Positions 11,747 to 63,786 of a stretch of 64,000 nucleotides of DNA are shown piece after piece (the first letter of the stretch is position 1; each line of letters opens with the position of its first letter). This DNA is from an uncultured Prevotellaceae bacterium. Lineage in GTDB: Bacteria; Bacteroidota; Bacteroidia; Bacteroidales; Bacteroidaceae. Where the stretch lies: contig CACYPF010000003.1 of the NCBI GenBank assembly GCA_902776195.1, positions 124,001-188,000 on the forward strand, in the 5' to 3' direction. A model generated the notes under the pieces. That model was given only the letters and a program-made list of their open reading frames with translations. It searched no databases and was not told where the DNA came from. The position numbers were made by a program, and so were the translations under genes.

Positions 11747-13180
11747 ATGATTACTGACGAACTGAAGTATCGCATCCGTGAGGCTTTCCTCCATGTGCCG
11801 ACGGCAGAGCAGGAGCACGCCATCGACGTGTTCTCTTTGTTTATGACAGACCGTCACGACCATGCCGTGATGATTATGCGTGGCTCTGCCGGTACGGGAA
11901 AGACAACCCTTGCAGCCGCTGTCGTCAAGGCAATGGCATCTCTGAAACAGAAGATGGTGCTGCTGGCTCCTACCGGACGTGCCGCCAAGGTCTTTTCGCT
12001 TTATGCCGGTCATCCTGCCTATACTATCCATCGTCGCATCTATCGTCAGAAATCGTTGGAAGGCGTTTTCGATCTTAACTATAACAATACGCAGGATACC
12101 TTATATATTATAGATGAGGCTTCGATGATAGCCAATGCCTCTCATTATGGTGACACTCCTTTCGCACAGGGGCAGTTGCTGGACGACCTGATACAGTTTG
12201 TGTATAATGGCCGTAACTGTCGTATGCTCCTTATTGGCGACCGTGCACAGTTGCCCCCGGTGGGTGAAGAGGAAAGTCCTGCCCTGATGGGTGAGGTGTT
12301 GCGGAGTTACGGACTGCATGTCCATGAGTGCGATCTCAACGAGGTGTTGCGACAGAGTCAGGAGTCTGGCATCTTATGGAATGCGACAGTTATTAGGAAC
12401 CTCACCCCTGACCCCTCTCCAGGAGGCGAAGGGAATATCTTATTACCGAAGATACGTTTTGTAGGTTTCGAGGATATCCATGTCGTGCCGGGGGATGAGT
12501 TGATTGAGTCGCTGGCAAGCAGCTACTCGAAGGTGGGACTCGATGAGACGATGGTGGTTACCCGCAGTAATAAACGGGCGAATATTTATAATCAGGGAAT
12601 CCGTAACATGGTGCTGGGGCGTGAGGACCAGCTCACCACAGGTGACCAACTCATGATAGTGAAGAATAATTATTATTGGGCGACGGCGGACTCTCAACTT
12701 TCATTCATCGCCAATGGCGACCGTGCTGTGGTGCGGAGAGTACGGAATGTCCATGAGTTATATGGTTTTCATTTCGCTGAGGTCACCATGACCTTTCCCG
12801 ACTATGACGACTATGAGTTGACGGCAATGGTCATTCTTGATACCCTGACTTCAGAGGCACCTGCCCTGACCCGTGAGCAACAGAAACAGCTCTATCAGGC
12901 AGTGATGGGGGACTATGCCGATATCCCTTTGAAACAAGACCGGCTGAAGAAACTCAAAGAGGATAAATACTATAATGCCCTACAGGTGAAATTCGCCTAT
13001 GCTGCCACCTGTCACAAGGCACAGGGCGGACAGTGGGCACATGTATATGTCGACCAGGGTTATATGACAGACGAGATGCTGACACCGGACTATATCCACT
13101 GGCTCTATACCGCATTCACCCGTGCCACCGAACAGCTATACCTTGTCAACTGGCCGAAGACACAGACTTGTAATGAATAG
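11747..13180 (+). CDS. RecD-like superfamily 1B DNA helicase/ATPase
   Basis: 477 residues. Superfamily 1B helicase motifs are present in order: Walker A GSAGTGKTT (46-54), motif Ia APTGRAA, motif II YIIDEASMI, motif III LLIGDRAQLPPVG, and near the C-terminus ATCHKAQGGQW (UvrD_C_2/motif V-like) and YTAFTRA (motif VI). It lacks the N-terminal domains of true RecD and resembles the stand-alone RecD-like exonuclease V family of Bacteroidota. Start at ATG 11747 is set by the -7 box 9 nt upstream; the GTG at 11705 would lie before it. A 12-residue proline/glycine-rich insert (LTPDPSPGGEG) is encoded by a repeat-like DNA tract at 12401-12433. Confidence 0.9.
   Translation: MITDELKYRIREAFLHVPTAEQEHAIDVFSLFMTDRHDHAVMIMRGSAGTGKTTLAAAVVKAMASLKQKMVLLAPTGRAAKVFSLYAGHPAYTIHRRIYRQKSLEGVFDLNYNNTQDTLYIIDEASMIANASHYGDTPFAQGQLLDDLIQFVYNGRNCRMLLIGDRAQLPPVGEEESPALMGEVLRSYGLHVHECDLNEVLRQSQESGILWNATVIRNLTPDPSPGGEGNILLPKIRFVGFEDIHVVPGDELIESLASSYSKVGLDETMVVTRSNKRANIYNQGIRNMVLGREDQLTTGDQLMIVKNNYYWATADSQLSFIANGDRAVVRRVRNVHELYGFHFAEVTMTFPDYDDYELTAMVILDTLTSEAPALTREQQKQLYQAVMGDYADIPLKQDRLKKLKEDKYYNALQVKFAYAATCHKAQGGQWAHVYVDQGYMTDEMLTPDYIHWLYTAFTRATEQLYLVNWPKTQTCNE
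12401..12433 (+). repeat. C-rich repeat-like tract inside the helicase gene
   Basis: The tract reads in frame as LTPDPSPGGEG and falls between SGILWNATVIRN and the next conserved strand, where helicases of this type need no such segment. The DNA word CTCACCCCTGACCCCTCTCC is of a type I recall as dispersed repeats in Bacteroidota and other genomes, so this looks like an in-frame insertion. Confidence 0.5.
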
Positions 13181-13203
13181 ATAAATATTATAGAGGTGAT
13201 GGA

Positions 13204-13896
13204 TCAGCCATTGTTGACCGCCTCGTTGAAACGGTCGAGGAGCCATTGCTTCTGTTCGGGAATCGTCATGTGGCTGTTGTCAAGTTCGATGGCATCGTCA
13301 GCCTTGCGGAGAGGAGATACCTCACGGTGGGAGTCGATATAGTCGCGCTCCTGTACGTTTTTCAGAATCTCGTCGAAGTCAGCTTCCATACCTTTCGTCT
13401 TCAACTCGTCATAGCGACGCTGGGCACGAACCTCTGCAGAGGCAGTGACGTAGATCTTCAGCTCTGCGTCGGGGAATACTGTAGTACCAATGTCACGACC
13501 GTCCATCACAACACCCTTGTCCTTGCCCATCTGCTGTTGCTGTGCCACCATTGCCTCACGCACAAAACCGAGGGCGGCGATGGGGCTCACGTGGTTGCTG
13601 ACCTCCATAGTGCGGATGTCCTGCTCGACGAGTTCCCCATTCAGGTACGTGTCAGGGCGACCTGTCTCCGCATTGAACTTAAACGAGATATGGATCTCAG
13701 GCATACGGCGGCGTAGCTCGTCCTCGTTGATGCCATCAGCAGTGAAGAGCCCGTTGCGGAGGGCAAAGAGTGTGACACTGCGATACATGGCACCCGTGTC
13801 GACATAAACATATCCGACTTCGCGAGCCAAGTCTTTTGCCATCGTACTTTTGCCACATGATGAGTGGCCGTCAATTGCTATCGTAATCTTTTTCAT
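13204..13896 (-). CDS. cmk: Cytidylate kinase
   Basis: Phosphorylates CMP/dCMP to the diphosphate with ATP in pyrimidine nucleotide metabolism. 230 residues, normal family length. P-loop GHSSCGKST (10-18) follows ITIAID; the substrate-binding [10 protein letters not shown] and the conserved [16 protein letters not shown] are both intact, as is the C-terminal QERDYIDS. The ATG overlaps the last codon of porQ by 4 bp, so cmk is translationally coupled behind porQ. Convergent with the helicase gene. Confidence 0.97.
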
Positions 13897-49864: not shown

Positions 49865-51793
49865 ATGGGAAAAATTATTGGAATTGACTTAGGAACAACC
49901 AACAGCTGCGTTGCCGTTTTCGAGGGTAACGAGCCAGTGGTTATCGCTAACAGCGAAGGTAAGCGTACGACACCCTCTGTCGTAGGTTTTGTTGAGAATG
50001 GTGAGCGTAAGATTGGTGACCCTGCCAAGCGTCAGGCTATTACCAACCCAAAGAAAACCGTTTACTCTATCAAACGTTTCATGGGTGAGAACTGGCAGCA
50101 GACAGAGAAGGAAATTTCGCGCGTACCTTATACTGTTGTCAACGAGGGTGGCTATCCTCGTGTGGACATTGACGGTCGTAAGTACACTCCACAGGAGATC
50201 TCCGCTATGATTCTGCAGAAGATGAAGAAAACTGCTGAGGACTACCTCGGACAGGAGGTGACGGATGCCGTTATCACTGTACCTGCTTACTTCTCAGACT
50301 CTCAGCGTCAGGCTACCAAGGAGGCTGGTCAGATTGCCGGTCTGAATGTACGCCGTATCGTCAACGAGCCAACGGCTGCCGCACTTGCTTATGGTGTCGA
50401 CAAAGCTAACAAGGATATGAAGATTGCTGTCTTCGACCTCGGTGGTGGTACGTTTGATATCTCTATCTTGGAGTTCGGTGGCGGCGTGTTTGAGGTGCTC
50501 TCTACCAATGGTGATACTCACCTGGGTGGTGATGACTTCGACCAGGTTATCATCGACTGGCTGGTACAGGAGTTCAAGAATGACGAGGGTGCCGACCTGA
50601 AGGCTGACCCCATGGCCATGCAGCGTCTGAAGGAGGCTGCCGAGAAGGCTAAGATTGAGTTGTCTTCTTCTACCAGCACAGAGATCAACTTACCGTATAT
50701 CATGCCTGTAGGCGGTGTACCTAAGCACTTGGTAAAGACTCTGACACGTGCTAAATTCGAGCAACTGGCACACGGACTGATTCAGGCTTGTCTGGCTCCA
50801 TGTCAGAAGGCTATCGCTGATGCCAAGCTGAACACTTCCGATATCGACGAGGTTATCCTCGTAGGTGGTTCCAGCCGTATTCCTGCTGTGCAGGAACTCG
50901 TGAAGAACTACTTCGGCAAGGAGCCTTCAAAGGGTGTGAACCCTGATGAGGTGGTTGCCGTTGGTGCCTCTATCCAGGGTGCTATCCTGAACAAAGAGGG
51001 TGGCGTAGGTGACATCGTGCTGCTTGACGTTACACCATTGACACTGGGTATCGAGACGATGGGTGGTGTGATGACCAAACTGATTGAGGCTAACACGACC
51101 ATTCCTTGCAAGAAGAGTGAGGTGTTCTCTACTGCTGCCGACAATCAGACAGAAGTGACTATCCATGTTCTGCAGGGTGAGCGCCCGATGGCCGCACAGA
51201 ACAAGTCTATCGGTCAGTTCAATCTGACAGGTATCGCTCCCGCACGTCGTGGTATTCCTCAGATTGAGGTAACCTTCGACATCGATGCCAACGGTATCCT
51301 GAAGGTTAGTGCCAAGGATAAGGCTACCGGTAAGGAGCAGGCTATCCGCATCGAGGCTTCCTCTGGTCTGTCACAGGATGAGATCAACCGCATGAAGGCT
51401 GAGGCTGAGCAGAATGCCGAGAACGATAAGAAGGAGCGTGAGCGTGTTGACAAGATGAACCAGGCTGACTCTATGATTTTCCAGACAGAGAATCAGTTGA
51501 AGGAGATTGGCGACAAGATTCCTGCCGATCAGAAGCCTGCCATTGAGAATGCCCTCCAGCAGTTGAAGGACGCTCATAAGGCTGGTGACATCGCCGCTAT
51601 CGACACTGCCATTGCTGCTCTTAACAACGCATGGCAGACTGCCTCACAGCAGATGTATCAGGGTGCCCAGGCTGGTCCTCAGCCAGGTGCTGACCAGCAG
51701 CAAGGTCCGTTCTACAACCAGCAGGCTAATAGCCAGCAGCAAGCTCCCAAGGATGACAACATCCAGGATGCAGACTTCGAGGAGGTGAAATAA
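49865..51793 (+). CDS. dnaK: Chaperone DnaK (Hsp70)
   Basis: ATP-dependent folding chaperone, 642 residues. ATPase signature [26 protein letters not shown] and [11 protein letters not shown]; substrate-binding domain and lid; C-terminus with Gln-rich stretch and [10 protein letters not shown]. Monocistronic here: no grpE or dnaJ beside it. Own terminator at 51814-51851. Confidence 0.98.
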
Positions 51794-51813
51794 TACTATT
51801 TGCAACAATATGA

Positions 51814-51851
51814 ATATGGGCGTAACCACTCGTGTTACGCCCATATTTTTT
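51814..51851 (+). terminator. dnaK terminator
   Basis: Perfect 13-bp stem ATATGGGCGTAAC / GTTACGCCCATAT with a 7-nt loop and T6 tail. Confidence 0.9.
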
Positions 51852-51862
51852 ATCATTCTTGC

Positions 51863-51963
51863 AAAAACATATAACCTTATAACATGATGGGGCTCTAATG
51901 CCGATGTACAAAGGGATTGACGTATGTTATATGTTGCCCAAACATGTAACATACATATAACAT
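51863..51963. repeat. Left 101-bp inverted repeat around the second vapE-like gene
   Basis: Nearly identical (about 97 of 101 positions) to the reverse complement of 53336-53436. It starts 12 bp after the dnaK terminator T-run and ends 2 bp from the vapE-like stop codon. It contains an internal imperfect palindrome (ATGTTATATGTT ... AACATGTAACAT). Confidence 0.95.
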
Positions 51964-51965
51964 CC

Positions 51966-53165
51966 TTATGCACTCTTGAGAGGGACTACCAGATAGTGGG
52001 GGCGGTTGTTGTATAATAGGTGCTCGATGCCCAGGTCCTTCATGGCAAGTCCCAGATGTATCTTGGTACTTCTATCACTCTTGACGGACGGGTATTCTTG
52101 TTGGATGAACTCCAGAATCTGTCTGCTGTCGAGTTTCTTGGCATTTTCACCTTCCTTGGGTTTCCTGAAGCATACCTGAATCATCTCGGAAATGTCTTTC
52201 TGCTCCATGTAGTTGAGGTTCAGATCTTGGATACGAGCCACTTCCACATTGTTAAACCAATAGGGTACCTTCAACTCCCTGATCTCATAAAGGACCTGCG
52301 CATACAACTGCTCATAGTCAATATCACCCTCGTTATGGATGAGTTGTCCTTTGGGTATCGTCAGACAGATGTATCGGCGTGAGCCAGTGGCATCCGTCAG
52401 CGGATGGGGATTGTTGGTGGTGGCGACGAAGGAGGCAAACCTTGGACGGTCTTCTTGCGAGCAGCCGAAGATAGGACGACCGTTGACCTTCGACTTCGAC
52501 AGGGTCTGTTTCAGATGGGCATGCTGACTGGGACGGATTGCCTCCAACTCGTCGAGGTTCACCAGCAGGTTGTTGGTTAGTGCCATCTCCTTGTCGAACT
52601 TGTTCGAGAGGTTCAGGTGGTCGAGGAAGTACTCTCGCAGATGGGGTGGGAGCAGTCGGGTGACGAAGGTTGTCTTACCACATCCCTGTGCTCCTATTAA
52701 AGTAGGTACGCACTCGTTACCATGGATGGTGTCCATCTGCAACCAGTGGGCGACCGTCGAGCGGAGCCATACGGCAAGGAACCCATGCTGCTCTGTCGAG
52801 ATACCAGGTAGTCTGCCGAACAACTTTGCCACATGGTTCTGTCCATCCCATTGGGGTAGGTGCTCCAAGAAATCCTGAATCGGATTGAACGTTGGAACAG
52901 CCTCAGAATGAATCAGTTCCAGAATGTCCGTCTTAGGTTTTCCATCACAGATGTCCTCCTTTTTGGCATGGATGATGATACTGTTCAGAGCCTCCTGTGT
53001 CAGTGTCCGATAGACGGGCACCTCAGCAGGAAGGGTAGCAAACTCAATCTTCCCATTCAGCATGTTGCGACGGAAAAGATAATTGTCTTGGAGGAACAAC
53101 TCTGCTTCCAGAGCAGCCTCCAGCGAAGGCGCAATAGCCTCGCCATGAATGGTTAATTCTTGCAT
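51966..53165 (-). CDS. VapE/VirE-type P-loop ATPase (no primase domain)
   Basis: 399 residues, VapE/DUF3874 helicase-like ATPase. Walker A GAQGCGKTT (158-166), Walker B LLVNLDE, sensor VATTNN (247-252), TGSRR (260-264), and a DUF3874-like C-terminus. The N-terminal primase-like domain of the first copy (2649-4673) is missing. The two proteins share order and spacing of motifs but differ much in sequence, so they are not a recent duplication. It is the only gene between the two 101-bp inverted repeats. Promoter TACCTTTG at 53226-53233. Confidence 0.88.
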   Translation of the reverse strand: MQELTIHGEAIAPSLEAALEAELFLQDNYLFRRNMLNGKIEFATLPAEVPVYRTLTQEALNSIIIHAKKEDICDGKPKTDILELIHSEAVPTFNPIQDFLEHLPQWDGQNHVAKLFGRLPGISTEQHGFLAVWLRSTVAHWLQMDTIHGNECVPTLIGAQGCGKTTFVTRLLPPHLREYFLDHLNLSNKFDKEMALTNNLLVNLDELEAIRPSQHAHLKQTLSKSKVNGRPIFGCSQEDRPRFASFVATTNNPHPLTDATGSRRYICLTIPKGQLIHNEGDIDYEQLYAQVLYEIRELKVPYWFNNVEVARIQDLNLNYMEQKDISEMIQVCFRKPKEGENAKKLDSRQILEFIQQEYPSVKSDRSTKIHLGLAMKDLGIEHLLYNNRPHYLVVPLKSA

Positions 53166-53795: not shown

Positions 53796-54917
53796 CTAAT
53801 CTTCAACGATTTCCCAATAGCCATTTCTTTTACCATTCACTCTACGTAGAATGTTCTTCTCTTGTAACGCTATGGTAATTGATTTGACTGTCCGCTCAGA
53901 TTTTCCAATTTCAGCAGCAATCTCTTTTTGGGTAGCAGATGGATTCTTTTGCACTATGCGAAGTAGAGCGACTTCTTCCAAAGTGCAATTTTTGCACTTT
54001 GGGGGTAATTCTTTGCCAGCTTTTGCACTTTGAACTTCGTGATTTGCACTTTGGGATATAGTTTCGTCCTCAACTTTGTTCCAATCAACGTGCATAATCC
54101 TGTTCCTAAGGTCATGTTCTTCTCCAAGCAACATACTGCGAAAGAATCTCTCCAAGTACTCTGTCGTTTCTGTGATGCCATTTGTCAAATCACTATAGTT
54201 GGCACGAACGAGCGCATTTCGGAAATACCATGAGTTCTCAGCAAAGACATCATTGACCACATTGAATCCCAATGTGCGTAAATACTTGATCATAAATACG
54301 GCAGTCGTTCGTGTGTTACCTTCGCAGAATGCGTGAACTTGCCATAGATTAGCGCAGAAACGAGTTAGGTGACGGATAGCATCATCAATATTCATGTTTG
54401 CATAACTGAATTCACGTTCCTGCCCCATATCGTATGCCAGCGTGTCGCTGATAGTGTCGGCACTGGCATAATATACCGTTTTGCCCCCAAGCACCCACTC
54501 GTTCTTCGTAATATTATAGTCACGAATGCGACCAGCTAACTTATAGATGCCGTCAAACAAGCGACGATGTATAGAAATCAACTGAGCAGGAGTAAACGAA
54601 AAGGTTTTTTCCTCTATCAGTTCAGTTATACGTGCAGCCACCTTGTCCGCCTCTTCTGTTCGGTCATCCTCTATAACCTTTCGTCCAGATGCAGACTTGT
54701 AGTATGAGTCAATAAGTTGCTTTGCCTCAGTGATACTGATGTCCCCCTCGATATGTCGTTTGGCAGTATCAAGCAGATATTCAGAAGTCTGGAGCCTATC
54801 AACCTGTTGAAGCCCTATAGCAACCTTCCAAGCTTCGCTACGCTCACGCTTCTGTGGTTCGCCTTGGCGTATGTATTCATTCAAGCCAAGAATTGTATAT
54901 TTCTGTTCGTCGCTCAT
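53796..54917 (-). CDS. Fic-family protein with C-terminal winged helix
   Basis: 373 residues. The Fic core motif is VHAFCEGNTRTT (His195 to Arg203), matching HxFxxGNGR with Thr in place of the second Gly. Fic proteins AMPylate targets. The C-terminal 60 residues form a winged helix (ATQKEIAAEIGKSERTVKSITIAL), typical of Fic proteins that also regulate. A clear inhibitory (S/T)xxxE(G/N) helix is not visible; SASGRKVIEDD near 75-85 is a weak candidate. It lies downstream of the DUF262 gene across a 38-codon stub, same strand. AT-rich relative to the core. Confidence 0.9.
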   Translation of the reverse strand: MSDEQKYTILGLNEYIRQGEPQKRERSEAWKVAIGLQQVDRLQTSEYLLDTAKRHIEGDISITEAKQLIDSYYKSASGRKVIEDDRTEEADKVAARITELIEEKTFSFTPAQLISIHRRLFDGIYKLAGRIRDYNITKNEWVLGGKTVYYASADTISDTLAYDMGQEREFSYANMNIDDAIRHLTRFCANLWQVHAFCEGNTRTTAVFMIKYLRTLGFNVVNDVFAENSWYFRNALVRANYSDLTNGITETTEYLERFFRSMLLGEEHDLRNRIMHVDWNKVEDETISQSANHEVQSAKAGKELPPKCKNCTLEEVALLRIVQKNPSATQKEIAAEIGKSERTVKSITIALQEKNILRRVNGKRNGYWEIVED

Positions 54918-55072: not shown

Positions 55073-57103
55073 TTACTCCTCGTCTTCTCCCTCTTGATCA
55101 GAACGGAATTCAAAAACGAGTTCGGATGCAGGGATATTACACTCCTCAAACAATCCATGAAGAATATTAATCTTGGTGGCAGTACTGTTGTCAGTCCATA
55201 CGTACATACCTGGTGCAAGTTCGCGTCTCCACTCTTCTGGAGTCGCTGAGAAGCTGCACTTTTCGTTTGCACAAAGCCATTCAATAGTTGAGCGCTTCTC
55301 CAGTAGGATGTGCCCACAAACCTGAATAAGCATTTCTTTCCAAGTGTTAACCGTATATCTTACTCCATGAAGTATATATGCTTGCAGTTTCTTGCCTGTG
55401 AACTCATAGTCTTCATCATCAAGCGATGCAGATTCCGCTTCACGTCTCAATGGTTCAAAAGTCGTAGTCGGCATAGGCCAGAGTCGCATAAACACATCCT
55501 GCAATTCTTTTTGACGTGCTTTCAACTCTGTTTCTGTCCATTGCTCACATGATTTCACAGAGTTATTCAGACGGAATGCACTATCCTTAAAACCCTTCTC
55601 CATGTCTCTCTTCTCAACAAACGTAAGATTGCTATATTGAGAATTATAGCCTGTGAGAGTAAGGTTTGCCATCGTATGAAGATACTGTTCATGGATTCTT
55701 TCCCAATCTTCGCCTAACGCAGTTTTCCATTTGTCCGACAGAGTTTGTGGCATAATATGTTCTATGGTAATATTCTTCTCTGTCAGTTCCTTCACCACAT
55801 CGTGCCGCTCATTATTAATTTTATATACCTGACGAGTTTTAAAGTCACCCCTTACCTCTTCATCAGAAGGAAAGACAGAAGAACGCCCCTTCTTCAACAA
55901 GACATAAGTCAGCACATCAATATATGAAGGAGTATCATCACCAGCTTTGTTGACATGATTCAAAACATCCCTATGGAGCGTTGCAAACACCTTATTCAAA
56001 GCATTTGATGGGAGATTACAGATGATTCTGCGTGCCCAATATGCTTCTATCACATCAAGTACACGATAAATCTCGTTTTCCACCAATCCCACTTTTGATG
56101 CATAGTCGAAGAAAGCCATAAAGAATGGATAAGCAATAGTAGAATCCAGCGTTCTGAGCTGGTTCAACTTCCTATTCAGTTTATCTGTACCTATCGTTGC
56201 ACTATCTACTTGGCTATATATCTTGGCATAGTGATGCATATCTTCCAAGAGCGTAGCCCTGTCAATATTTATATTTTCGGCATACTCTTTAAAGATAAAG
56301 TATATCTTATCAATACGTCCTATCTTTCCTTGCTTCATGGTAAGGTAATCGCGTACAAAAGAAGACGGATCATACTTGGTAAACTCTTCTATAGGATTCC
56401 AGAATCGAGTATATAAGTCATCCTGCTCAACTGGTGCAAGTGACATCAACAGATAGTTACGTATCTTGTCAGCTTCACTCAGATCAAGACCTGTAGAGTT
56501 CAGACTCTCAAATATCAGTTGTGGATCATCATCTTCGTCAAGACGAATATTGATGACTTCCAGTTTCTTGATGGTCTCAAAAAGTTCGTCAATAGTCAAT
56601 CCGCAATGAAGAATCTTATCATAGAAGAAATCATAGTTGCGAGTAACATTCGATTCTTTGATATATTGCTCCTTGGGCTTATACAGCAAAGCATCAAAAG
56701 CCTGCATATCTTTCTTGATAGGTTTCAGTTTTACCTTTCGTTCGTCTTCCTGGTATTCATCCACCAGATAACGCTTGAAGATTTTCTCTACAAGTTTTGC
56801 ATCAGTCGCTTCTATCAGCCCTTCCTTCTTAGCATTAACCATCGCAATCAGTAGCAACGAAACAGTAGTAATTCGCTGTTGGCCATCAATGATGAATCTG
56901 TCTTCTGTTCCAGACTGGATACTTGACACGATACTACCAAAGAAGTGACTCCTGCGGTCGCTATTATGTAGTTTCATCAAGTCTTGAAACAACTGTTCGC
57001 AGTTCTCTTCTTTCCAGTCGTAGTTTCGCTGGTAAAGAGGAATGATGAATCGCTTGTCTGATCCATCAAAGAACTTTATTAATGGTTGAGCGTCACCTTT
57101 CAT
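55073..57103 (-). CDS. GmrSD-like DUF262/DUF1524 nuclease
   Basis: 676 residues. N-terminal DUF262 (ParB/sulfiredoxin-like) domain: FIIPLYQRNYDW (19-30), IIDGQQRITT (71-80; DGQQR is the NTP-binding motif) and FESLNSTGLDLSEADKIRNYLL (198-219). A helical middle follows, then the DUF1524 His-Me/HNH-type nuclease motif TIEHIMPQTLSDKW (about 446-459, His449) and MANLTLTGYNSQYSN. This is the GmrS-GmrD fusion arrangement of modification-dependent (type IV) restriction, whose founding member cleaves glucosylated hydroxymethylcytosine DNA. It starts 2 bp after the EVE-like gene, making them a likely pair. Confidence 0.88.
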   Translation of the reverse strand: MKGDAQPLIKFFDGSDKRFIIPLYQRNYDWKEENCEQLFQDLMKLHNSDRRSHFFGSIVSSIQSGTEDRFIIDGQQRITTVSLLLIAMVNAKKEGLIEATDAKLVEKIFKRYLVDEYQEDERKVKLKPIKKDMQAFDALLYKPKEQYIKESNVTRNYDFFYDKILHCGLTIDELFETIKKLEVINIRLDEDDDPQLIFESLNSTGLDLSEADKIRNYLLMSLAPVEQDDLYTRFWNPIEEFTKYDPSSFVRDYLTMKQGKIGRIDKIYFIFKEYAENINIDRATLLEDMHHYAKIYSQVDSATIGTDKLNRKLNQLRTLDSTIAYPFFMAFFDYASKVGLVENEIYRVLDVIEAYWARRIICNLPSNALNKVFATLHRDVLNHVNKAGDDTPSYIDVLTYVLLKKGRSSVFPSDEEVRGDFKTRQVYKINNERHDVVKELTEKNITIEHIMPQTLSDKWKTALGEDWERIHEQYLHTMANLTLTGYNSQYSNLTFVEKRDMEKGFKDSAFRLNNSVKSCEQWTETELKARQKELQDVFMRLWPMPTTTFEPLRREAESASLDDEDYEFTGKKLQAYILHGVRYTVNTWKEMLIQVCGHILLEKRSTIEWLCANEKCSFSATPEEWRRELAPGMYVWTDNSTATKINILHGLFEECNIPASELVFEFRSDQEGEDEE

Positions 57104-57105
57104 GA

Positions 57106-57495
57106 TTAGAATACGGATTTGATGTAATTGATTAATTCAACATTATTACAACTTGGAATCTCCAGCGCTCGACCTCCTTTGAAACCATGTTTACACAACT
57201 CTTGTTCAGAAAGATGAGCACCATCATACTCTTCGAGTAATTCAAGCTTGTAAGTAATATCATTTGGAGGCGTTTCCACCCAATATGCCTGATCTTCACG
57301 TTTGCAGTTTTCTGCAGTTACTACCATCTTGAAACGCACACATCGTTCATCAGACATAAACAGATACACAACATCTCCAATGGAGAAACGTGCTCTTCCC
57401 ATTCTCCAACTGATGAAACCAAGACTCAGGATTGCATCAGCATGACGACACCTTTTTCTATTGGCAAAGGCAAGCCAAGTACGATTGTGAGACAT
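57106..57495 (-). CDS. EVE/PUA-like domain protein, candidate modified-base reader
   Basis: 129 residues. The pattern TWLAFANRKRC...LGFISWRMGRARFSIGDVVYLFMSDERCVRFKMVV follows the EVE/PUA fold, in which an aromatic cage reads modified cytosine. It starts 9 bp after the ATPase gene and ends 2 bp before the DUF262 nuclease start. Start chosen at ATG 57495; a TTG lies at 57504. The assignment is by pattern only; I cannot prove the cage. Confidence 0.65.
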   Translation of the reverse strand: MSHNRTWLAFANRKRCRHADAILSLGFISWRMGRARFSIGDVVYLFMSDERCVRFKMVVTAENCKREDQAYWVETPPNDITYKLELLEEYDGAHLSEQELCKHGFKGGRALEIPSCNNVELINYIKSVF

Positions 57496-57504
57496 ATCAA
57501 CCAA

Positions 57505-59262
57505 TTAAAAATTAAAAACATTCATCAATTCATCTAACACGGTTTTGAATCCATCAAAAGCAGTATCAGGGAATGTATTATAGTTTTTCTCTATATAATC
57601 CTTTATTGCCGTCCCTTTATTTCCTATAGAGTTATTTCTAAAATCCTTATATTTCCTGGAATTAATCACTGGTGTGATAACAGATAAATATGCACTTTCA
57701 GAAAAAATATCTTCAACCATATAAGTCTTATCAGGTTTAATGGTTTTCTGACCGCCATTTGCAGCAGATATTAAGGCATCAGATGTTGGATAATTCACTG
57801 AAGGATAGCTGTCTTGGTAAAACATTGGAATAATTTTCAAACCTCCTCCAGAGATTGCATCAATCTTCTTCCATCCATCTTTCCAACCACCATCATCATA
57901 GTCAAATAGGAATACGATTTTCTCAATCTTAGCAATACACTTAGAAAGAATCTGATTATATATTACTTCTGCAGAACTAGCGCTATTAGCAGAGATAATA
58001 GCGACATCATTCAATTTGCTATATTTTGAATCTGATTTTTCAAAAATACTAATTGCTTTTCTCAGATATTTATCATCATATTTTCCTTCAACTACAAGTA
58101 TATATTTCGAACTCAGGATAAACGAGCCTTCAAAATAGTCGATTTCATTATCTGTTAGTTCTGCAAGATGCTTCAATGGCTCTGTATTCTCAATCTTTCC
58201 ATCATGCATATAAAAGATATTATTCTCATCAAAACCGTCCCATCGCTTGTTAAGGAACATTGGCGAATGAGTTGTCATGATGGTTTGGCCCTCAAACTCT
58301 GAAATAAGTTTGAGGAGATCTTTCTTCATTGCAATATGAGTATGAGCATCTGGCTCGTCAAGGAGAATAAGTGAGTTTTCGTCACCTAATACCTTTGTTA
58401 TACATTCAATAAGAATTAGTTTCTTCTCACCTTCGCTAAGATTGTCAAAATCAATCTTGTTACCTTCAACATTGACTGAAACTTTAATTTCATTTATTAG
58501 TTTATCAATCTTGTTTCGATCGTTTTTCTTTGGTTGCGATAACAAATAAAGAAAATTAAAGATATATTTAGACTTTTCACTTTCTAAAACCTGTTTGCCC
58601 TCAACAAAAATATCTGTTGTTGCAATAGTATTAAGGTTTATTCCTATAAGGCCTTCATGTGTGATACGGTTAAACCAACTCAATGCAGTATGTGTTTGGA
58701 ACGCTTCTTTTTTTGCGTCATCAATAGCAAATTCAAGCTCAACGTCTATAGGAGTGCTAATATTTAGAGTCTTTTTCAAGAAGCTCTTCACTTCTGGATT
58801 ATTAGAGCAAACGAGTGAAATCAAGGCAATTTTCCAGCAATATTTGTTGACATAAAGAAACCTTGGAGAAGAGTATGATCGCTTTACTGCCTCATTAAAA
58901 TAATCCATATGATAATTCTCAAAAGCAGCATGCCACAATCTTAGGTCTTCTCCACTATAACAAGCAATTACAGATGAAGGGAGTTCAAGTTCTTTTGCTT
59001 TGCACTTTTTCCCATCTTTCTTAGCTTGTCCCTTTTTTCGTGCATATATATGCCCATTCAACTCATACTCAATTTCATAATCGAAAGGAATTCCTGAGCC
59101 GTTCTTATTGACTATTCCATCAAAAACTATACTTATAGCTTCAAGCAAATTGCTCTTGCCTGAACCATTAAGGCCGATCATGGCTATATAGCCATTATTA
59201 TTGAAGGAATATAGACCTTTGAGATTTTTATAACTATCAATATCTAACGAACACAATTTCAT
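57505..59262 (-). CDS. OLD-like AAA ATPase with C-terminal TOPRIM domain
   Basis: 585 residues. ABC-type ATPase head: Walker A GLNGSGKS (30-37), signature LSEGEKKL (275-282), Walker B LILLDEPD (298-305), His-loop MTTHSP (His332). TOPRIM-like nuclease part: ILVVEGKYDDKY (Glu392) and FLFDYDDGG (Asp454, Asp456, Asp457). This is the class-2 OLD architecture as in GajA, but the usual UvrD-like partner (GajB) is absent. PrrC was considered and rejected because its C-terminus differs. It starts 2 bp after hsdS. The region is clearly AT-rich. Confidence 0.85.
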   Translation of the reverse strand: MKLCSLDIDSYKNLKGLYSFNNNGYIAMIGLNGSGKSNLLEAISIVFDGIVNKNGSGIPFDYEIEYELNGHIYARKKGQAKKDGKKCKAKELELPSSVIACYSGEDLRLWHAAFENYHMDYFNEAVKRSYSSPRFLYVNKYCWKIALISLVCSNNPEVKSFLKKTLNISTPIDVELEFAIDDAKKEAFQTHTALSWFNRITHEGLIGINLNTIATTDIFVEGKQVLESEKSKYIFNFLYLLSQPKKNDRNKIDKLINEIKVSVNVEGNKIDFDNLSEGEKKLILIECITKVLGDENSLILLDEPDAHTHIAMKKDLLKLISEFEGQTIMTTHSPMFLNKRWDGFDENNIFYMHDGKIENTEPLKHLAELTDNEIDYFEGSFILSSKYILVVEGKYDDKYLRKAISIFEKSDSKYSKLNDVAIISANSASSAEVIYNQILSKCIAKIEKIVFLFDYDDGGWKDGWKKIDAISGGGLKIIPMFYQDSYPSVNYPTSDALISAANGGQKTIKPDKTYMVEDIFSESAYLSVITPVINSRKYKDFRNNSIGNKGTAIKDYIEKNYNTFPDTAFDGFKTVLDELMNVFNF

Positions 59263-59264
59263 AA

Positions 59265-60623
59265 TTATCCAAATATCAATTGTTCAAATTTATGTTCAGC
59301 CTCATTTTTGGACTTCAATCCTTTCATTTTAACTTTTTCAGCATCATCATATATTTTCTGAACGTGATTAGCAATTTCTTTTTGAATATCTATAGGGGGA
59401 ACTGGAACTAATAGATTCTTCAAATAAGACAGTGGAACACGTTGTTGACCAGCAGATCCTGTAAAGTGTTTTGTTGCATCATTTAATAACGTTTCTAATC
59501 GAAGGAGACAATGAATATATCGCAAATCTATTTTTATAGTTAAATTGCGTATTACATAAAACTCCGTTGAACCGCAGCCTAAACCATTTGTTAGATTTTG
59601 AACTATTGCCGATTTCCCATTCTGCATACAAGGGGTGATTTTTGCCCAAAGAAGGTCACCATCTTTAAATTTTGTATACCCCTTGCTATTATATACAGAA
59701 CATTGGTCATTACCCATCCAGCAAGCAAACTCATCTGAAATGCTTTGCATCGGTATGAAAGAAATCATTTCTTCATTTTTCAAATGGCGAAAAGATGTTT
59801 GAGGATTAATAGCAACAATTTCACCTAACAATTTGTTTTCATACATAGTAGAATATAGTATGCCTTTTTTATAAGAACTGTTCACGCTCCATGATAGAAG
59901 TCTAGAAAAATGTTGAAATTTTATAAATCCATCATTCTTATTTTCAGATTCCTTTTGCGGTATAGACAAAGCAGAAAAAACATATCTCTCAACTATAGAC
60001 TTTGTTTTGTTTATCTCTATTTGAGACTTTCGGAATGCATCATAATTAGTATAATAATCTTTCAAAATTATTTCTTGTTCCTCTAAACTTGGCAATGGAA
60101 TCTGCTGATTGAGGAAAGCATCTTCTTGAAGATAATGTCTATTTGTTGTTCCGTTACTACTTTTTTCTGCAAAATCGAGAAACTGTTGAGTTTTTGTAAC
60201 TAACGTCAAAAACTGAGGATTTATTCTTTTATAATCAACATCGTAAGTCCAGAAATTACCTGTAATAATCGCACCTTCTGCTATCGCAGGAACGACACCA
60301 TAAGCTCCATTGCGAGCGTCGATTTTCGAAAGAAGAAATTGACCTTCATGTATAACGAATTGCTTTTTGGTACCAATCAATTTTCCATCCTTCTCATCTC
60401 TAATAGTGATGTTACCACCTTTTGTGCTTACTGTTACACGTTTATATATTATTCCGTCTTGAATAACTATAGCCTCTTTTCTGCGTGTAAGAAACGACCC
60501 AATCCTTGCCATTGGATATTTTCTTGTAAATCCCAGATCTTCTTCATCAGCATACTGGACACTCCAATTAGGAATGTCCTTATAGTTTGCAAGATGTAGA
60601 TACTTATATATCATATTTACCAT
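59265..60623 (-). CDS. hsdS: Type I restriction specificity subunit HsdS
   Basis: 452 residues with two target-recognition domains, each ending with the conserved pattern: SSNGTTNRHYLQEDAFLNQQIPLPSLEEQ (first) and GSAGQQRVPLSYLKNLLVPVPPIDIQKEI (second). Coiled-coil linkers follow each. Each domain reads one half of a bipartite target. It starts 6 bp after hsdM. Two repeats of similar type within one gene allow domain exchange; no second hsdS is seen in the window. Confidence 0.92.
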   Translation of the reverse strand: MVNMIYKYLHLANYKDIPNWSVQYADEEDLGFTRKYPMARIGSFLTRRKEAIVIQDGIIYKRVTVSTKGGNITIRDEKDGKLIGTKKQFVIHEGQFLLSKIDARNGAYGVVPAIAEGAIITGNFWTYDVDYKRINPQFLTLVTKTQQFLDFAEKSSNGTTNRHYLQEDAFLNQQIPLPSLEEQEIILKDYYTNYDAFRKSQIEINKTKSIVERYVFSALSIPQKESENKNDGFIKFQHFSRLLSWSVNSSYKKGILYSTMYENKLLGEIVAINPQTSFRHLKNEEMISFIPMQSISDEFACWMGNDQCSVYNSKGYTKFKDGDLLWAKITPCMQNGKSAIVQNLTNGLGCGSTEFYVIRNLTIKIDLRYIHCLLRLETLLNDATKHFTGSAGQQRVPLSYLKNLLVPVPPIDIQKEIANHVQKIYDDAEKVKMKGLKSKNEAEHKFEQLIFG

Positions 60624-60629
60624 GTCGTA

Positions 60630-62849
60630 CTAATCTTTACCATAAAACACCTCGGGTTCGCAGACTATACCATCGACCTCTTGTATACGGGTCATCTTGC
60701 CATCATTATATTGATATGATGTATTCGCATGTCGTTTATTCCAAAGATTATTTTCCTTGCGATATTTAGTAAACTCTTCTAATAGAGGTTCCAAATCGTT
60801 TTCTATCTTAATTCCAATAGAGTTGATGCCCGCACGTTTAATGTCGGCGATTGGAATCACATAATCAAAACGCTGCTTGACAAGTATTTTTGTTTCCTGA
60901 TCAATCGCTGCTTCAATTTCTTTTTTCCTTGCTCGAAGAGTCTTCTTCTCTGCAGCAGGCAATGCATCCTTTCCTCTTTTAGCCAAATCATTTTCTATCG
61001 AAGTTAATTCCTCGATATATTTGTCTTTAACTTCTGCGAATGCTTTGACTTTTATACCATTGTATTGTGCCTGTTCTTTTTCCGTAAAACGCTTGAAAAA
61101 CATGAGACTTGGTTTTACTGTTGCACCAGCTGCCATGAATACATCTTGTGGAATAGAAACTATCAGTAGAATCTTAGCTCTACCCTCAAAGTATTCTCGC
61201 ACATTCTGCAGATTGGTATTATTCAGCACACCTTCTGGCAAAACGATGCCTAAACGTCCGCCAGGCTTAAGCAAATTCAAACATCGATCTATAAACAGAA
61301 CCTCTGTAAGTCCACTCATCTTGCCAACTCCAAATTGGTCAAGAAGTGATTCGCCAATATGATCATTCACCTGCCTAAGAGCAGCAAGGTATTCTTCGCC
61401 ATATCGCTTAACATAAGCTTTGATTTTAGTTTCATCTGTAAACTTATCAGCTTCAGTGATTTTAATGTCTTTATCTACACGGGCACCAAATGGAGGATTA
61501 GTAAGAATTACATCAAAACGACCATCCCATATACCATTGACATTTAAAAGACCATCATGATGATGCACTCCACCATGCCCATCACCATGCATTATCATAT
61601 TCATCTTGGCTGTACGTGCCATACGTGGATTAGCATCGGTACCATAAATGCAATCAAAAGACAAGCTACGTAATCTACCTTTCGGATTATTGACATCGAC
61701 CTCGAAGTTCATTTTAGCAAAGGCATCAGATACTTTGGCATCAATAGCTTCTTGCTCTTTGGGTTTCAGATCATCATAATTTCCAGGAATGAGTTGCTTT
61801 TTTACCTCTTCTTTACGTTGTTCTAATTCGGATTCAATCTGCTCACGTACATACTCAAAAGCTCGAATCAAGAAGCCTCCACTGCCACAGCATGGGTCAC
61901 AAATATATTCACCCTCCTGAGGATCAAGGACTGACACCATAAACTCAACAATGGTTCGTGGCGTAAAAAATTGGCCCAATTCCCCACGGAATGTACGTCC
62001 TAAGAATTTCTCAAATGCAATACCCTTGACATCATCAGATGTTGTAGAAAGATTATAGACCTGAAGTTCCTCAACAATCTTTTCGAAACTTGTCTCTCGA
62101 ATTCGGATTGTTTCATTTGGATCGAACAGATTGTCTTTAGAAAAATCTTCCTTGGTTTTCTCAAACAAGAATTGATAAAACTCTGGAGCATCTTTTGACT
62201 TCATGCTGTTGTAAGCATCTTTAAGCTTTACAAATGCATCCTTTGAGAAAATTTGAGTGCCAGTATTGTCCCGCTCGTAACGAATCTTAATAAAGAGAAT
62301 TTTACTAATTTCGTCAAAAGCCGCTTCTGGAGATAGCTTGTCGTTATTTCTAATGATATTATGGCATTTATAAAGTAGGCGAGAGAATTCGTCTCTGGTA
62401 AATGCTTTCGTCTGATTCAACAATTCTTTCACCTTCTTCTCATCTGTCGCTATCTCTGCACTTGGAATATCTACTATCTCCTCAAGTTTCTTGGGAAGTT
62501 CACCTTTCACAACTTTGAAGACACGAGTTTCCTTGAGGTTGGTCGTAACAAAGAAATCCGCACCAGCCCATGCAGCATAGTTATAGCCTTGATAATAATC
62601 TTCCTTTCGGATAGTAACGCTTTCCGCTTTACATTCAACCACTATAAAGGCACTTTTACTGTCTGTTTTATCTTTAGCCGATTTCCAAATAACAATATCT
62701 AACTCCTGATCCATTTGCTTTAAGTCATAGCCATAGCTATCTACCAAGCGGCAAATATACCTTTGGCGTACCTCTTCTTCTGGTTTTACGACAAGCCACT
62801 TATCTTTAAGAGGAGCGTATATCTTGTTGTCTTTTATTTGTACTTCCAT
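60630..62849 (-). CDS. hsdM: HsdM-type N6-adenine methyltransferase fused to a PD-(D/E)xK-like nuclease domain
   Basis: 739 residues. Residues 1-110 resemble the HsdR N-terminal endonuclease domain: QELDIVIWKSAKD (Asp51) and FIVVECKAESV (Glu72-x-Lys74), a PD-(D/E)xK motif. The methyltransferase part has GQFFTPR (292-298), motif I DPCCGSGGF (318-326) and NPPF (451-454). The arrangement equals the A subunit of BcgI-like (type IIB) enzymes, which with a separate S subunit cut and modify without a motor subunit. It would explain why no HsdR is near. Lower GC than core genes. Confidence 0.9.
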   Translation of the reverse strand: MEVQIKDNKIYAPLKDKWLVVKPEEEVRQRYICRLVDSYGYDLKQMDQELDIVIWKSAKDKTDSKSAFIVVECKAESVTIRKEDYYQGYNYAAWAGADFFVTTNLKETRVFKVVKGELPKKLEEIVDIPSAEIATDEKKVKELLNQTKAFTRDEFSRLLYKCHNIIRNNDKLSPEAAFDEISKILFIKIRYERDNTGTQIFSKDAFVKLKDAYNSMKSKDAPEFYQFLFEKTKEDFSKDNLFDPNETIRIRETSFEKIVEELQVYNLSTTSDDVKGIAFEKFLGRTFRGELGQFFTPRTIVEFMVSVLDPQEGEYICDPCCGSGGFLIRAFEYVREQIESELEQRKEEVKKQLIPGNYDDLKPKEQEAIDAKVSDAFAKMNFEVDVNNPKGRLRSLSFDCIYGTDANPRMARTAKMNMIMHGDGHGGVHHHDGLLNVNGIWDGRFDVILTNPPFGARVDKDIKITEADKFTDETKIKAYVKRYGEEYLAALRQVNDHIGESLLDQFGVGKMSGLTEVLFIDRCLNLLKPGGRLGIVLPEGVLNNTNLQNVREYFEGRAKILLIVSIPQDVFMAAGATVKPSLMFFKRFTEKEQAQYNGIKVKAFAEVKDKYIEELTSIENDLAKRGKDALPAAEKKTLRARKKEIEAAIDQETKILVKQRFDYVIPIADIKRAGINSIGIKIENDLEPLLEEFTKYRKENNLWNKRHANTSYQYNDGKMTRIQEVDGIVCEPEVFYGKD

Positions 62850-62884
62850 ATTGTTATTTAGGCATTCGCCCTGTTTATTTGATT

Positions 62885-63526
62885 CTACTTCTTTGGCTTT
62901 TCTATCACCATATACTTAGCCCCACTTTTAACAAGTGTGCCCCAACCGTATGGGCAGTTATCACGCAGGTAGATGAATTGCTCGGTAATTGTTTTGTCAT
63001 TCTTATCATCGTATGACTCCGAGGCTACACTGACAAGAGTAATGTACTTGCTACCTTGTTCAGAATCTTCTACCCAGTAATTGTCTTCTTCACAGTCGAG
63101 CCATTTGTTTGTGATAATCTCCTTTTCAATTTGCTGTGCAAGTGCTAGTCTTTCTTCGGCATCGGGGAGCATCTCTGTCAACTTGCGATTATATTCCTTG
63201 CATAGTGCTTTCGTTTTTTTCTTATCCGTCAGTTGTCTGACTTCTGCATCGTATTGGTGCATCAAGCTTTTAGCCTCTTTGAGAAGGTTTCGAGAGATTG
63301 GCTTGAAGTTACAGAACTCACCATCAACAGCAACCATAGGGAATCGACGCTGAGCATTGAGACCACTTTCGTTAAGAGAGTACCATGTTACAATGCAGAA
63401 GTCTTTATCGCCAGGTCCCACTTCCACCTCGTTAACCTCCATGAAAACGAGAGGGTGCGGAGTGCTTTCTACAAAAGCATCGCCTTTCTTGAAATGTGGC
63501 ATTGGTTTTGATTCTATTTTATCCAT
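62885..63526 (-). CDS. Unknown protein at the head of the restriction operon
   Basis: About 213 residues from ATG 63526. N-terminal PHFKKGDAFVESTPHPLVFMEVNEV suggests a beta-rich start; the centre is a charged helix (KEAKSLMHQYDAEVRQLTDKKK), and the end is beta-rich again (YITLVSVASESYDDKN...). No motif I can name. It lies between the XRE regulator and hsdM, 35 bp from the latter. The frame continues upstream to 63691 but the shorter start avoids overlap with the XRE gene. Confidence 0.65.
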   Translation of the reverse strand: MDKIESKPMPHFKKGDAFVESTPHPLVFMEVNEVEVGPGDKDFCIVTWYSLNESGLNAQRRFPMVAVDGEFCNFKPISRNLLKEAKSLMHQYDAEVRQLTDKKKTKALCKEYNRKLTEMLPDAEERLALAQQIEKEIITNKWLDCEEDNYWVEDSEQGSKYITLVSVASESYDDKNDKTITEQFIYLRDNCPYGWGTLVKSGAKYMVIEKPKK

Positions 63527-63585
63527 GCTTGCTTTTCTTACAGTTTTACCACTTAAAGGTATACACCATCTACCCTTTAATACGA

Positions 63586-63786
63586 TTACTTGCTTTTCTC
63601 TATCCTCAACAGTTCGTTTATATCGACTTCGAGGAGTTCTGCAATCTTGACGAATGTCTCCATAGGTGGTTGGCTGGCATTGGTACACCATTTACTCACG
63701 GTAGTCGGTGCACACTCCAACTGCTCGGATAACCACTTATTTGTTCTCTTCTTATCCGCGAGAACTACTTTGATTCTATTTTCCAT
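63586..63786 (-). CDS. XRE-family helix-turn-helix regulator
   Basis: 66 residues, a single Cro/C1 domain: KRTNKWLSEQLECAPTTVSKWCTNASQPPMETFVKIAELLEVDINELL. Size and position match the controller (C) proteins of restriction systems, which delay nuclease expression. First gene of the leftward defence operon with promoter 63829-63836. Confidence 0.88.
   Translation of the reverse strand: MENRIKVVLADKKRTNKWLSEQLECAPTTVSKWCTNASQPPMETFVKIAELLEVDINELLRIEKSK

Follow-up and report, generated by a model that had tools for sequence, protein, structure and literature searches.

Several known systems carry additional antiviral effectors on restriction or methylation-based operons, and what is said of them here follows excerpts of the cited papers. 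In BcgI-type restriction-modification (RM) enzymes a nuclease is fused to a methyltransferase and the specificity (S) subunit is separate, and PrrC, which is embedded in a type I RM operon, acts when T4 defeats restriction (PMC3874165). OLD-type ABC ATPases with a TOPRIM domain, as well as GmrSD genes, have been proposed to serve BREX as auxiliary or backup effectors, and in PARIS a TOPRIM nuclease is activated by the ATPase AriA, which is the sensor of Ocr (PMC12839542). Septu cleaves a tRNA (PMC13096335), and rare EVE-GmrSD fusions have been reported (PMC7641849). OLD proteins are divided by context into classes 1 to 3 (stand-alone, GajB-linked and retron-linked, respectively), and the recognition of infection was called elusive for the retron-linked class 3 (PMC10568477). 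Here we analyze a stretch of 64,000 nucleotides (the window) of contig CACYPF010000003.1 from an uncultured, gut-type Prevotellaceae bacterium (assembly GCA_902776195.1, a draft in 42 contigs), in which seven consecutive minus-strand genes (positions 55073-63786) are predicted to encode, among others, a BcgI-like RM enzyme, an OLD/PtuA-type ABC ATPase with TOPRIM, a small EVE-like protein and a GmrSD-type nuclease.

Our tentative interpretation, whose probability we place a little under even, is that of a multilayer restriction operon in which the RM enzyme is joined by a guard or backup nuclease, whose sensing parts are diversified, and by a modification-dependent nuclease pair. A single operon would then carry three kinds of predicted DNA-cutting antiviral defence. 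In the first layer, the RM and S subunits would methylate DNA, and the enzyme of intact relatives should cleave unmodified DNA in the manner of BcgI. In the second, the ATPase-TOPRIM protein would ride on the RM operon as a backup or guard nuclease, firing once a phage blocks restriction or otherwise triggers it and aborting the infection, an expectation drawn by analogy with PARIS, Septu and PrrC. The third layer would be a separable EVE-like and GmrSD pair that recognises and cuts modified-base DNA which the RM enzyme may spare. Layers 1 and 3 may be weakened in this genome by in-frame deletions.

The RM core and the ATPase slot after hsdS

The genes from the RM gene onward are separated by only 6, 2, 9 and 2 base pairs (bp), and the two upstream gaps measure 59 and 35 bp. 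The window RM subunit carries both the D-E-K triad of a PD-(D/E)xK nuclease and an NPPF motif. In the alignment, the triad is conserved in 31 of the 33 RM homologues that cover the site and NPPF in all 34, the window included in both, and the former indicates that the RM nuclease is normally maintained. With its fusion of nuclease and N6-methyltransferase and its separate S subunit of two target domains, the core is, judged from sequence, laid out like a BcgI-type (type IIB) enzyme. The nuclease domain of the window copy is incomplete, as a 42-bp in-frame deletion relative to homologues has removed 14 amino acids directly before the catalytic Asp, a stretch that 19 of 21 other homologues have at full length and that is shorter in loci L042 and L067.

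The gene after hsdS appears to encode an OLD/PtuA-type ABC ATPase with intact TOPRIM motifs, an assignment based on its motifs, on profile matches in the PDB and on Pfam matches of its relatives. All 17 aligned ATPases have the Walker A, signature, Walker B and H-loop motifs and all 14 TOPRIM-bearing ones the TOPRIM residues (E, DxD, E), the window protein included each time, and ABC ATPase and TOPRIM lie in one chain with their catalytic motifs, as in the OLD family. A profile of 12 family members matches retron ATPases, AriA and OLD (6p74) in the PDB, along with many other ABC proteins, and the Pfam OLD-like TOPRIM model matches 4 of the 12 at an E-value of 0.01, the window ATPase not being one of them. 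Among PADLOC profiles, the best match is of the PtuA type (amino acids 1-337, 6e-40), and mad3 is matched at 6e-22. The protein reaches 28.1 of the 500 bits set for PtuA in NCBIfam, and the genes beyond it do not match PtuB; nor does its position beside the RM and S genes correspond to the contexts of OLD classes 1-3. In three loci (L023, L027 and L038) the ATPase lacks TOPRIM and a PtuB HNH gene comes after it, with best PADLOC E-values from 5.9e-45 to 5.6e-66. The slot after hsdS thus occurs in two forms, with TOPRIM in cis and with PtuB in trans, and effectors of the Septu and OLD types are thereby linked to a single RM core.

The distribution of these genes was examined around homologues of the RM protein, which matched 9 of 393 genomes of the order at 1e-100. 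In the family of G793, the genome to which L008 belongs, 11 of 399 genomes matched at 1e-150; this family appears to be the window's own, because G798 matches the same place as G327, which belongs to the window's genus. After removal of G055 (cut by a contig end) and G798 (a duplicate), 18 loci were left. They include three known beforehand to carry the ATPase, namely G000 (the window), G792 (L006) and G793 (L008, the centre of the sample), and the genomes of L006 and L008 had first been found via the ATPase; counts are therefore also given for the remaining 15. An ATPase or GmrSD gene is called absent when it was not recognised by BLAST against the homologues gathered here or in the gene list. 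An ABC ATPase directly follows hsdS, or the single RM-S frame found in G368 and G971, at 13 of the 18 loci (10 of 15), 12 times with TOPRIM and once as PtuAB, and the ATPase frame of G315 contains a stop. An EVE-like gene occurs at 5 of 18 (G000, G221, G792, G793 and G924; 2 of 15) and is followed by GmrSD in all of these except G924 (4 of 18; 1 of 15). Other genes beyond the ATPase encode a Schlafen AlbA_2 protein (L061) and an SMC-like protein (L040).

These results bear on the initial annotation of the window, made from the sequence alone, which had described seven closely spaced minus-strand genes, assigned their domains and proposed that the ATPase, EVE-like and GmrSD genes form a unit attacking modified phage DNA. 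The gene order and spacing agree with the coordinates, the domains of RM, HsdS, ATPase and GmrSD are recovered by Pfam (kinship to EVE only via relatives), and an operon-like layout with extra nuclease layers on an RM enzyme is supported. The triple itself is also seen beyond the window, but its ATPase accompanies the RM core whereas EVE-GmrSD is separable, and a single conserved unit is rejected in view of the different distribution of its parts and of a breakpoint near the EVE start (see below). A second line against modified DNA thus stays credible for the EVE-GmrSD pair, but not with the ATPase in the same unit. Inactivating TOPRIM substitutions in homologues, which would have spoken against the proposal, were not found, although inactivation may partly apply to the other nucleases, as both the RM nuclease domain and GmrSD of the window have in-frame deletions.

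The main rival view, which we consider rather unlikely, assigns the role of principal effector to the ATPase-TOPRIM protein, in a MADS- or BREX-like system guided by methylation. Self DNA would be known by its methylation, HsdS would locate targets and the ATPase-nuclease would break down DNA without the mark, the N-terminal RM nuclease being auxiliary or dispensable. The RM protein resembles MAD2 (NCBIfam, 5.1e-87), HsdS weakly resembles MAD5 (NCBIfam) and the ATPase matches mad3 as noted above; moreover, the deletion in the window RM copy falls in the same nuclease domain whose catalytic Glu has become Ala in L042 and L067, where an ATPase-TOPRIM gene nevertheless comes directly after. However, the general conservation of the triad is not in favour of a dispensable nuclease, the MAD2 match attains 292.7 of the 720 bits required and so stays below its cut-off, and RM cores without a recognised ATPase exist. 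In addition, the ATPase swaps independently of HsdS, which is not obviously expected of a subunit fitted to HsdS.

Mosaicism of hsdS and the ATPase gene

The distinctness of the alleles rests on six operons that share a frame of RM, EVE-like and, in part, GmrSD genes (the window, L005, L006, L008, L035 and L060), plus the broken one of G315. Between the window and the other five, protein identity is 86-99% for RM, 84-97% for the EVE-like protein and 88-98% for GmrSD (in L006, L008 and L035, which carry it), whereas it is 36-47% for HsdS and 31-90% for the ATPase. The contrast is sharpest among the window, L008 and L035, where RM (98-99%), EVE-like (95-97%) and GmrSD (98%) proteins are nearly identical but the ATPase (34-52%) and HsdS (37-53%) are not. 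For the window and L035 alone, the values are 99%, 97% and 98% for the frame, 37% for HsdS and 34% for the ATPase, and synonymous divergence is 0.30 in RM, 0.04 in EVE and 0.41 in GmrSD against 2.6 in the ATPase.

The transitions are abrupt. Around the EVE start, DNA identity, followed in steps of 40 nucleotides, jumps from about 50-68% to 90-100% within 40-80 nucleotides in all five pairs examined, and in three of these pairs it drops some 100-150 nucleotides inside hsdS. The ATPase, being swapped across the breakpoint near the EVE start, evolves apart from EVE-GmrSD. Within the ATPase of L008, a core of about amino acids 267-387 has 85-100% DNA identity to the window and L005 (70-78% in its first 40 nucleotides), and the flanking parts have about 25-68%. 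At fourfold sites, L005 and L008 agree at 27 of 38 positions in the core and 15 of 44 in the arms from amino acid 46 on (Fisher p = 0.001); for the window and L008 the corresponding figures are 21 of 40 and 14 of 43, a weak difference (p = 0.08). The variable cassettes extend over about amino acids 45-265 and 388-585.

In HsdS, the target-domain halves are exchanged among relatives; for example, L008 and L035 have the first half in common (85-100% DNA identity), with only about 50% in the second. The two variable genes are exchanged independently of each other, since L005 and L008 have HsdS in common (94%) but not the ATPase (54%), while the window and L005 have the ATPase in common (90%) but not HsdS (37%). 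As the association is broken both ways, an ATPase obliged to match its HsdS partner is disfavoured. A search of the window genome with hsdS gave a single match, and phase variation through extra hsdS copies in this genome was rejected. In G315, the operon is split inside hsdS over two contig ends (L036 and L037), with broken GmrSD and Fic genes; the split could reflect a repeated or shuffling hsdS sequence.

We read the cassettes as the parts that would sense or resist fast-changing phage proteins, their exchange reflecting an arms race. Homologous recombination in conserved sequence appears to have moved them from host to host, and to have done so independently of exchange in the HsdS target domains. 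In its most specific form, which we regard as somewhat unlikely, the proposal makes the ATPase-TOPRIM protein a guard with diversified alleles, in which two interchangeable recognition cassettes, reading phage proteins in place of DNA, flank a conserved motor core. If this is true, ATPase cassettes are built and shuffled like HsdS target domains, and one operon contains two independently evolving specificity genes. For the question of how the OLD family recognises infection, these operons, which have near-identical RM, EVE-like and GmrSD genes and vary mainly in the ATPase cassettes and the HsdS target domains, form a natural set in which the trigger could be mapped by comparison of alleles.

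The EVE-like gene, GmrSD and the surroundings of the operon

The small protein has no match at an E-value of 0.1 in Pfam, NCBIfam, PADLOC or PHROGs, and the Pfam EVE model finds nothing in the window genome. At 1e-5, its gene matched only the window's own genome among 395 genomes of the phylum; at 1e-3, the family was found in 32 of 399 genomes, including G792 and G793. A profile of 17 relatives, from which three rows already known to match EVE had been left out, was searched against 7,253 frames and finds L132, L130, L127 and L125 at 7e-18 to 2e-14; L125 (26.5 bits) and L130 (24.0 bits) score above the Pfam EVE cut-off of 23 bits, and L127 and L132 match below it. The protein is thereby tied to Pfam EVE through its relatives and is assigned to an EVE-like family. 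Outside RM loci, EVE-like genes were found at 33 places, 31 regions were taken and 27 neighbourhoods examined (all except L104, L115, L119 and L124). A GmrSD homologue was recognised in three: in L102 it adjoins the EVE-like gene and is 97% identical to that of L008, with no RM gene recognised; in L125 the EVE-like gene adjoins a split GmrSD; and in L106 both lie inside a type I operon. L127 is an EVE-HNH fusion protein, and in L062 an EVE-like part belongs to a GIY-YIG (T5orf172) protein whose gene (12775-13629) lies upstream of the same RM core and ends 3 bp before it. Because relatives in L127, L062, L102 and L125 are fused or adjacent to nucleases, it is credible that the EVE-like protein and GmrSD act as a modification-dependent pair. 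Several labels in these regions were given by eye and are presumed names, namely the MutT and Dcm-like genes of L112 and L132, HsdM of L106 and HsdR of L070.

A plasmid or phage home of the operon was rejected: there was no EVE-like match in plasmids and none confirmed among viral contigs, and the sole EVE-like match in the phages collection has bacterial-looking neighbours. On L070 (MT835483.1), a record named Bacteriophage sp. that is perhaps bacterial DNA, genes resembling by eye those for HsdR, a leucine-rich-repeat protein, an EVE-like protein and a dehydrogenase were noted.

GmrSD_N and GmrSD_C domains lie in one chain in the window, as in GmrSD type IV enzymes, and the gene has a 48-bp in-frame deletion relative to L006, L008 and L035, which has removed 16 amino acids just before the HNH motif. 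Taken together with the 42-bp deletion in the otherwise well-conserved RM stretch, this might indicate an operon that is decaying in this genome, with the RM nuclease and GmrSD partly disabled and mainly methylation and the ATPase left, a view that is compatible with the other explanations and to which we give a minority chance. Signs of decay are also present elsewhere: the EVE gene of L005 is truncated, with no GmrSD homologue within the stretch covered, and G315 combines its broken GmrSD and Fic genes with the stop in its ATPase frame. On the other hand, the reading frames of the window are open, its RM and GmrSD proteins are still 98-99% identical to the copies of L008 and L035, and nonsynonymous divergence (dN) of both genes from these copies is far below synonymous divergence (dS). 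Both deletions may also be misassembly instead of real losses, strain mixing or misassembly being possible in a draft genome.

The features are collected in Table 1. XRE homologues are also located upstream of the RM genes in L006, L008, L027 and L061. For the 213-amino-acid protein, Pfam, NCBIfam and PHROGs yielded no family at a significant level; it is 69-87% identical in L005, L006 and L008 and only 28-29% in L035 and L036, where a divergent replacement version stands before the RM gene. The Fic gene, which was missing from the initial annotation, lies on the same strand 155 bp beyond the GmrSD gene; the copy that follows this operon in L035 is 97% identical, that of L037 is broken, and a homologue (51% identical) is near the RM genes of L063.

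Table 1. Predicted genes of the operon and its possible extension, in window positions
Feature	Position	Strand	Basis
XRE-family regulator, 66 amino acids	63586..63786	-	sequence; NCBIfam RstR-type repressor 3.8e-6, below cut-off
213-amino-acid protein, gene upstream of RM gene	62885..63526	-	conserved position, no family assignment
RM subunit, nuclease and N6-adenine methyltransferase, 739 amino acids	60630..62849	-	HSDR_N_2 2.3e-21, N6_Mtase 5.8e-37 (Pfam)
HsdS specificity subunit, 452 amino acids	59265..60623	-	Methylase_S 5.1e-16 (Pfam)
OLD/PtuA-type ABC ATPase with C-terminal TOPRIM, 585 amino acids	57505..59262	-	AAA_21 3.2e-15, also AAA_15 (Pfam)
EVE-like small protein, putative modified-base reader, 129 amino acids from ATG	57106..57495	-	profile of relatives
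GmrSD-type (DUF262 and DUF1524) nuclease, 676 amino acids	55073..57103	-	GmrSD_N 5.4e-36, GmrSD_C 2.2e-24 (Pfam, above cut-offs)
Fic-HTH protein, possible further operon member	53796..54917	-	Fic 1.5e-11 (Pfam); PADLOC candidate PDC-S72 3.8e-138

Beyond the Fic gene, the window contains a VapE-like gene and then a gene that we take by eye to be dnaK. Both stand beside the operon in the window (49865-53165) and in L008 (14455-17529), and this common neighbourhood suggests an insertion hotspot. The dnaK fragment (223 codons) has 79% DNA identity and a dN of 0.17 between the window and L008, whereas dN is only 0.011 in the RM gene, which indicates horizontal transfer. The common location raises the question of whether independent defence genes have simply been gathered by island dynamics, without mechanistic coupling, the diversity of the ATPase being ordinary replacement between conserved flanks. 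We consider this rather unlikely. It would account for the EVE-like and GmrSD genes without an RM core in L102 and L125 and for a slot after hsdS that is varied or empty, but less readily for spacing of 2-9 bp, for the recurrence of the ATPase at the same place in most RM loci, or for L008, which retains the ATPase core between two swapped cassettes and is not a whole-gene replacement.

A number of observations weigh against the multilayer interpretation. No ATPase was recognised at 5 of the 18 RM loci (G128, G882, G891, G990 and G1029), so it is not essential to the RM core, and 24 of the 27 EVE-like neighbourhoods have no recognised GmrSD homologue, which tells against EVE-like and GmrSD genes being an obligatory pair. 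The loss of the catalytic Glu in L042 and L067 fits the ATPase as main effector at least equally well. The AlphaFold models of the ATPase (mean pLDDT 41) and the EVE-like protein (mean pLDDT 44) are poor and give no fold support, and a profile search of the PDB with the EVE-like family gave no EVE chain. The contrast between a stable frame and swapped genes also has exceptions: in L006 the ATPase (75%) is better explained by ordinary divergence than by a swap, the RM gene there is itself mosaic relative to the window (89-99% DNA identity over the first 900 nucleotides or so, then 64-85%), and the frame recombines too, as in the replaced 213-amino-acid gene of L035 (28%). Finally, we infer a sensing role for the cassettes from their diversity alone.

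Comparison with known systems

The kind of arrangement is already known; what appears to be new is that a type IIB-like core carries EVE-GmrSD genes and that the mosaicism involves two cassettes. Neither this gene set nor exchange of OLD-type cassettes was found in the open-access literature searched, subscription papers being mostly outside that search. Homologues of the methyltransferase, ATPase and S components of MADS (MAD2, MAD3 and MAD5) are present in the window operon, but the matches lie under the NCBI cut-offs, and the gene complement differs from that of MADS. The likeness to Septu and retron PtuAB consists in the PtuA profile as best PADLOC match and in the three relatives with PtuA and PtuB in the same slot, whereas the window ATPase has TOPRIM in cis and no PtuB gene next to it.

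The fusion of nuclease and methyltransferase with a separate S subunit is shared with BcgI and BsaXI, for which ATPase, EVE or GmrSD partners are unmentioned in the excerpt of PMC3874165; the nuclease domain of the window copy has a deletion. An EVE domain is combined with an HNH or GmrSD nuclease in EVE-HNH and EVE-GmrSD type IV enzymes (PMC7641849, excerpt), but the window has two genes, 2 bp apart, within an RM operon. RloF of Campylobacter hsd loci is likewise a DUF262 gene within an RM locus (cited in PMC4619093), although those loci are type I with hsdR and the excerpt mentions no OLD or EVE partner. EcoprrI/PrrC provides an effector within an RM operon that acts upon defeat of restriction, demonstrated there for T4 and merely proposed here; PrrC is an anticodon nuclease (PMC3874165, excerpt), and the window has an ABC-TOPRIM protein and a type IIB-like core. 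In BREX and BREX-related systems, as far as the excerpt of PMC12839542 describes them, TOPRIM-linked OLD-type ABC ATPases, HNH-linked versions of them and GmrSD are found on a methylation-based operon as in the loci studied here, but the host in the window is a compact RM-S enzyme of type IIB-like layout with an EVE-like gene, and its operon genes with a family match include none that is PglZ- or BrxC-like.

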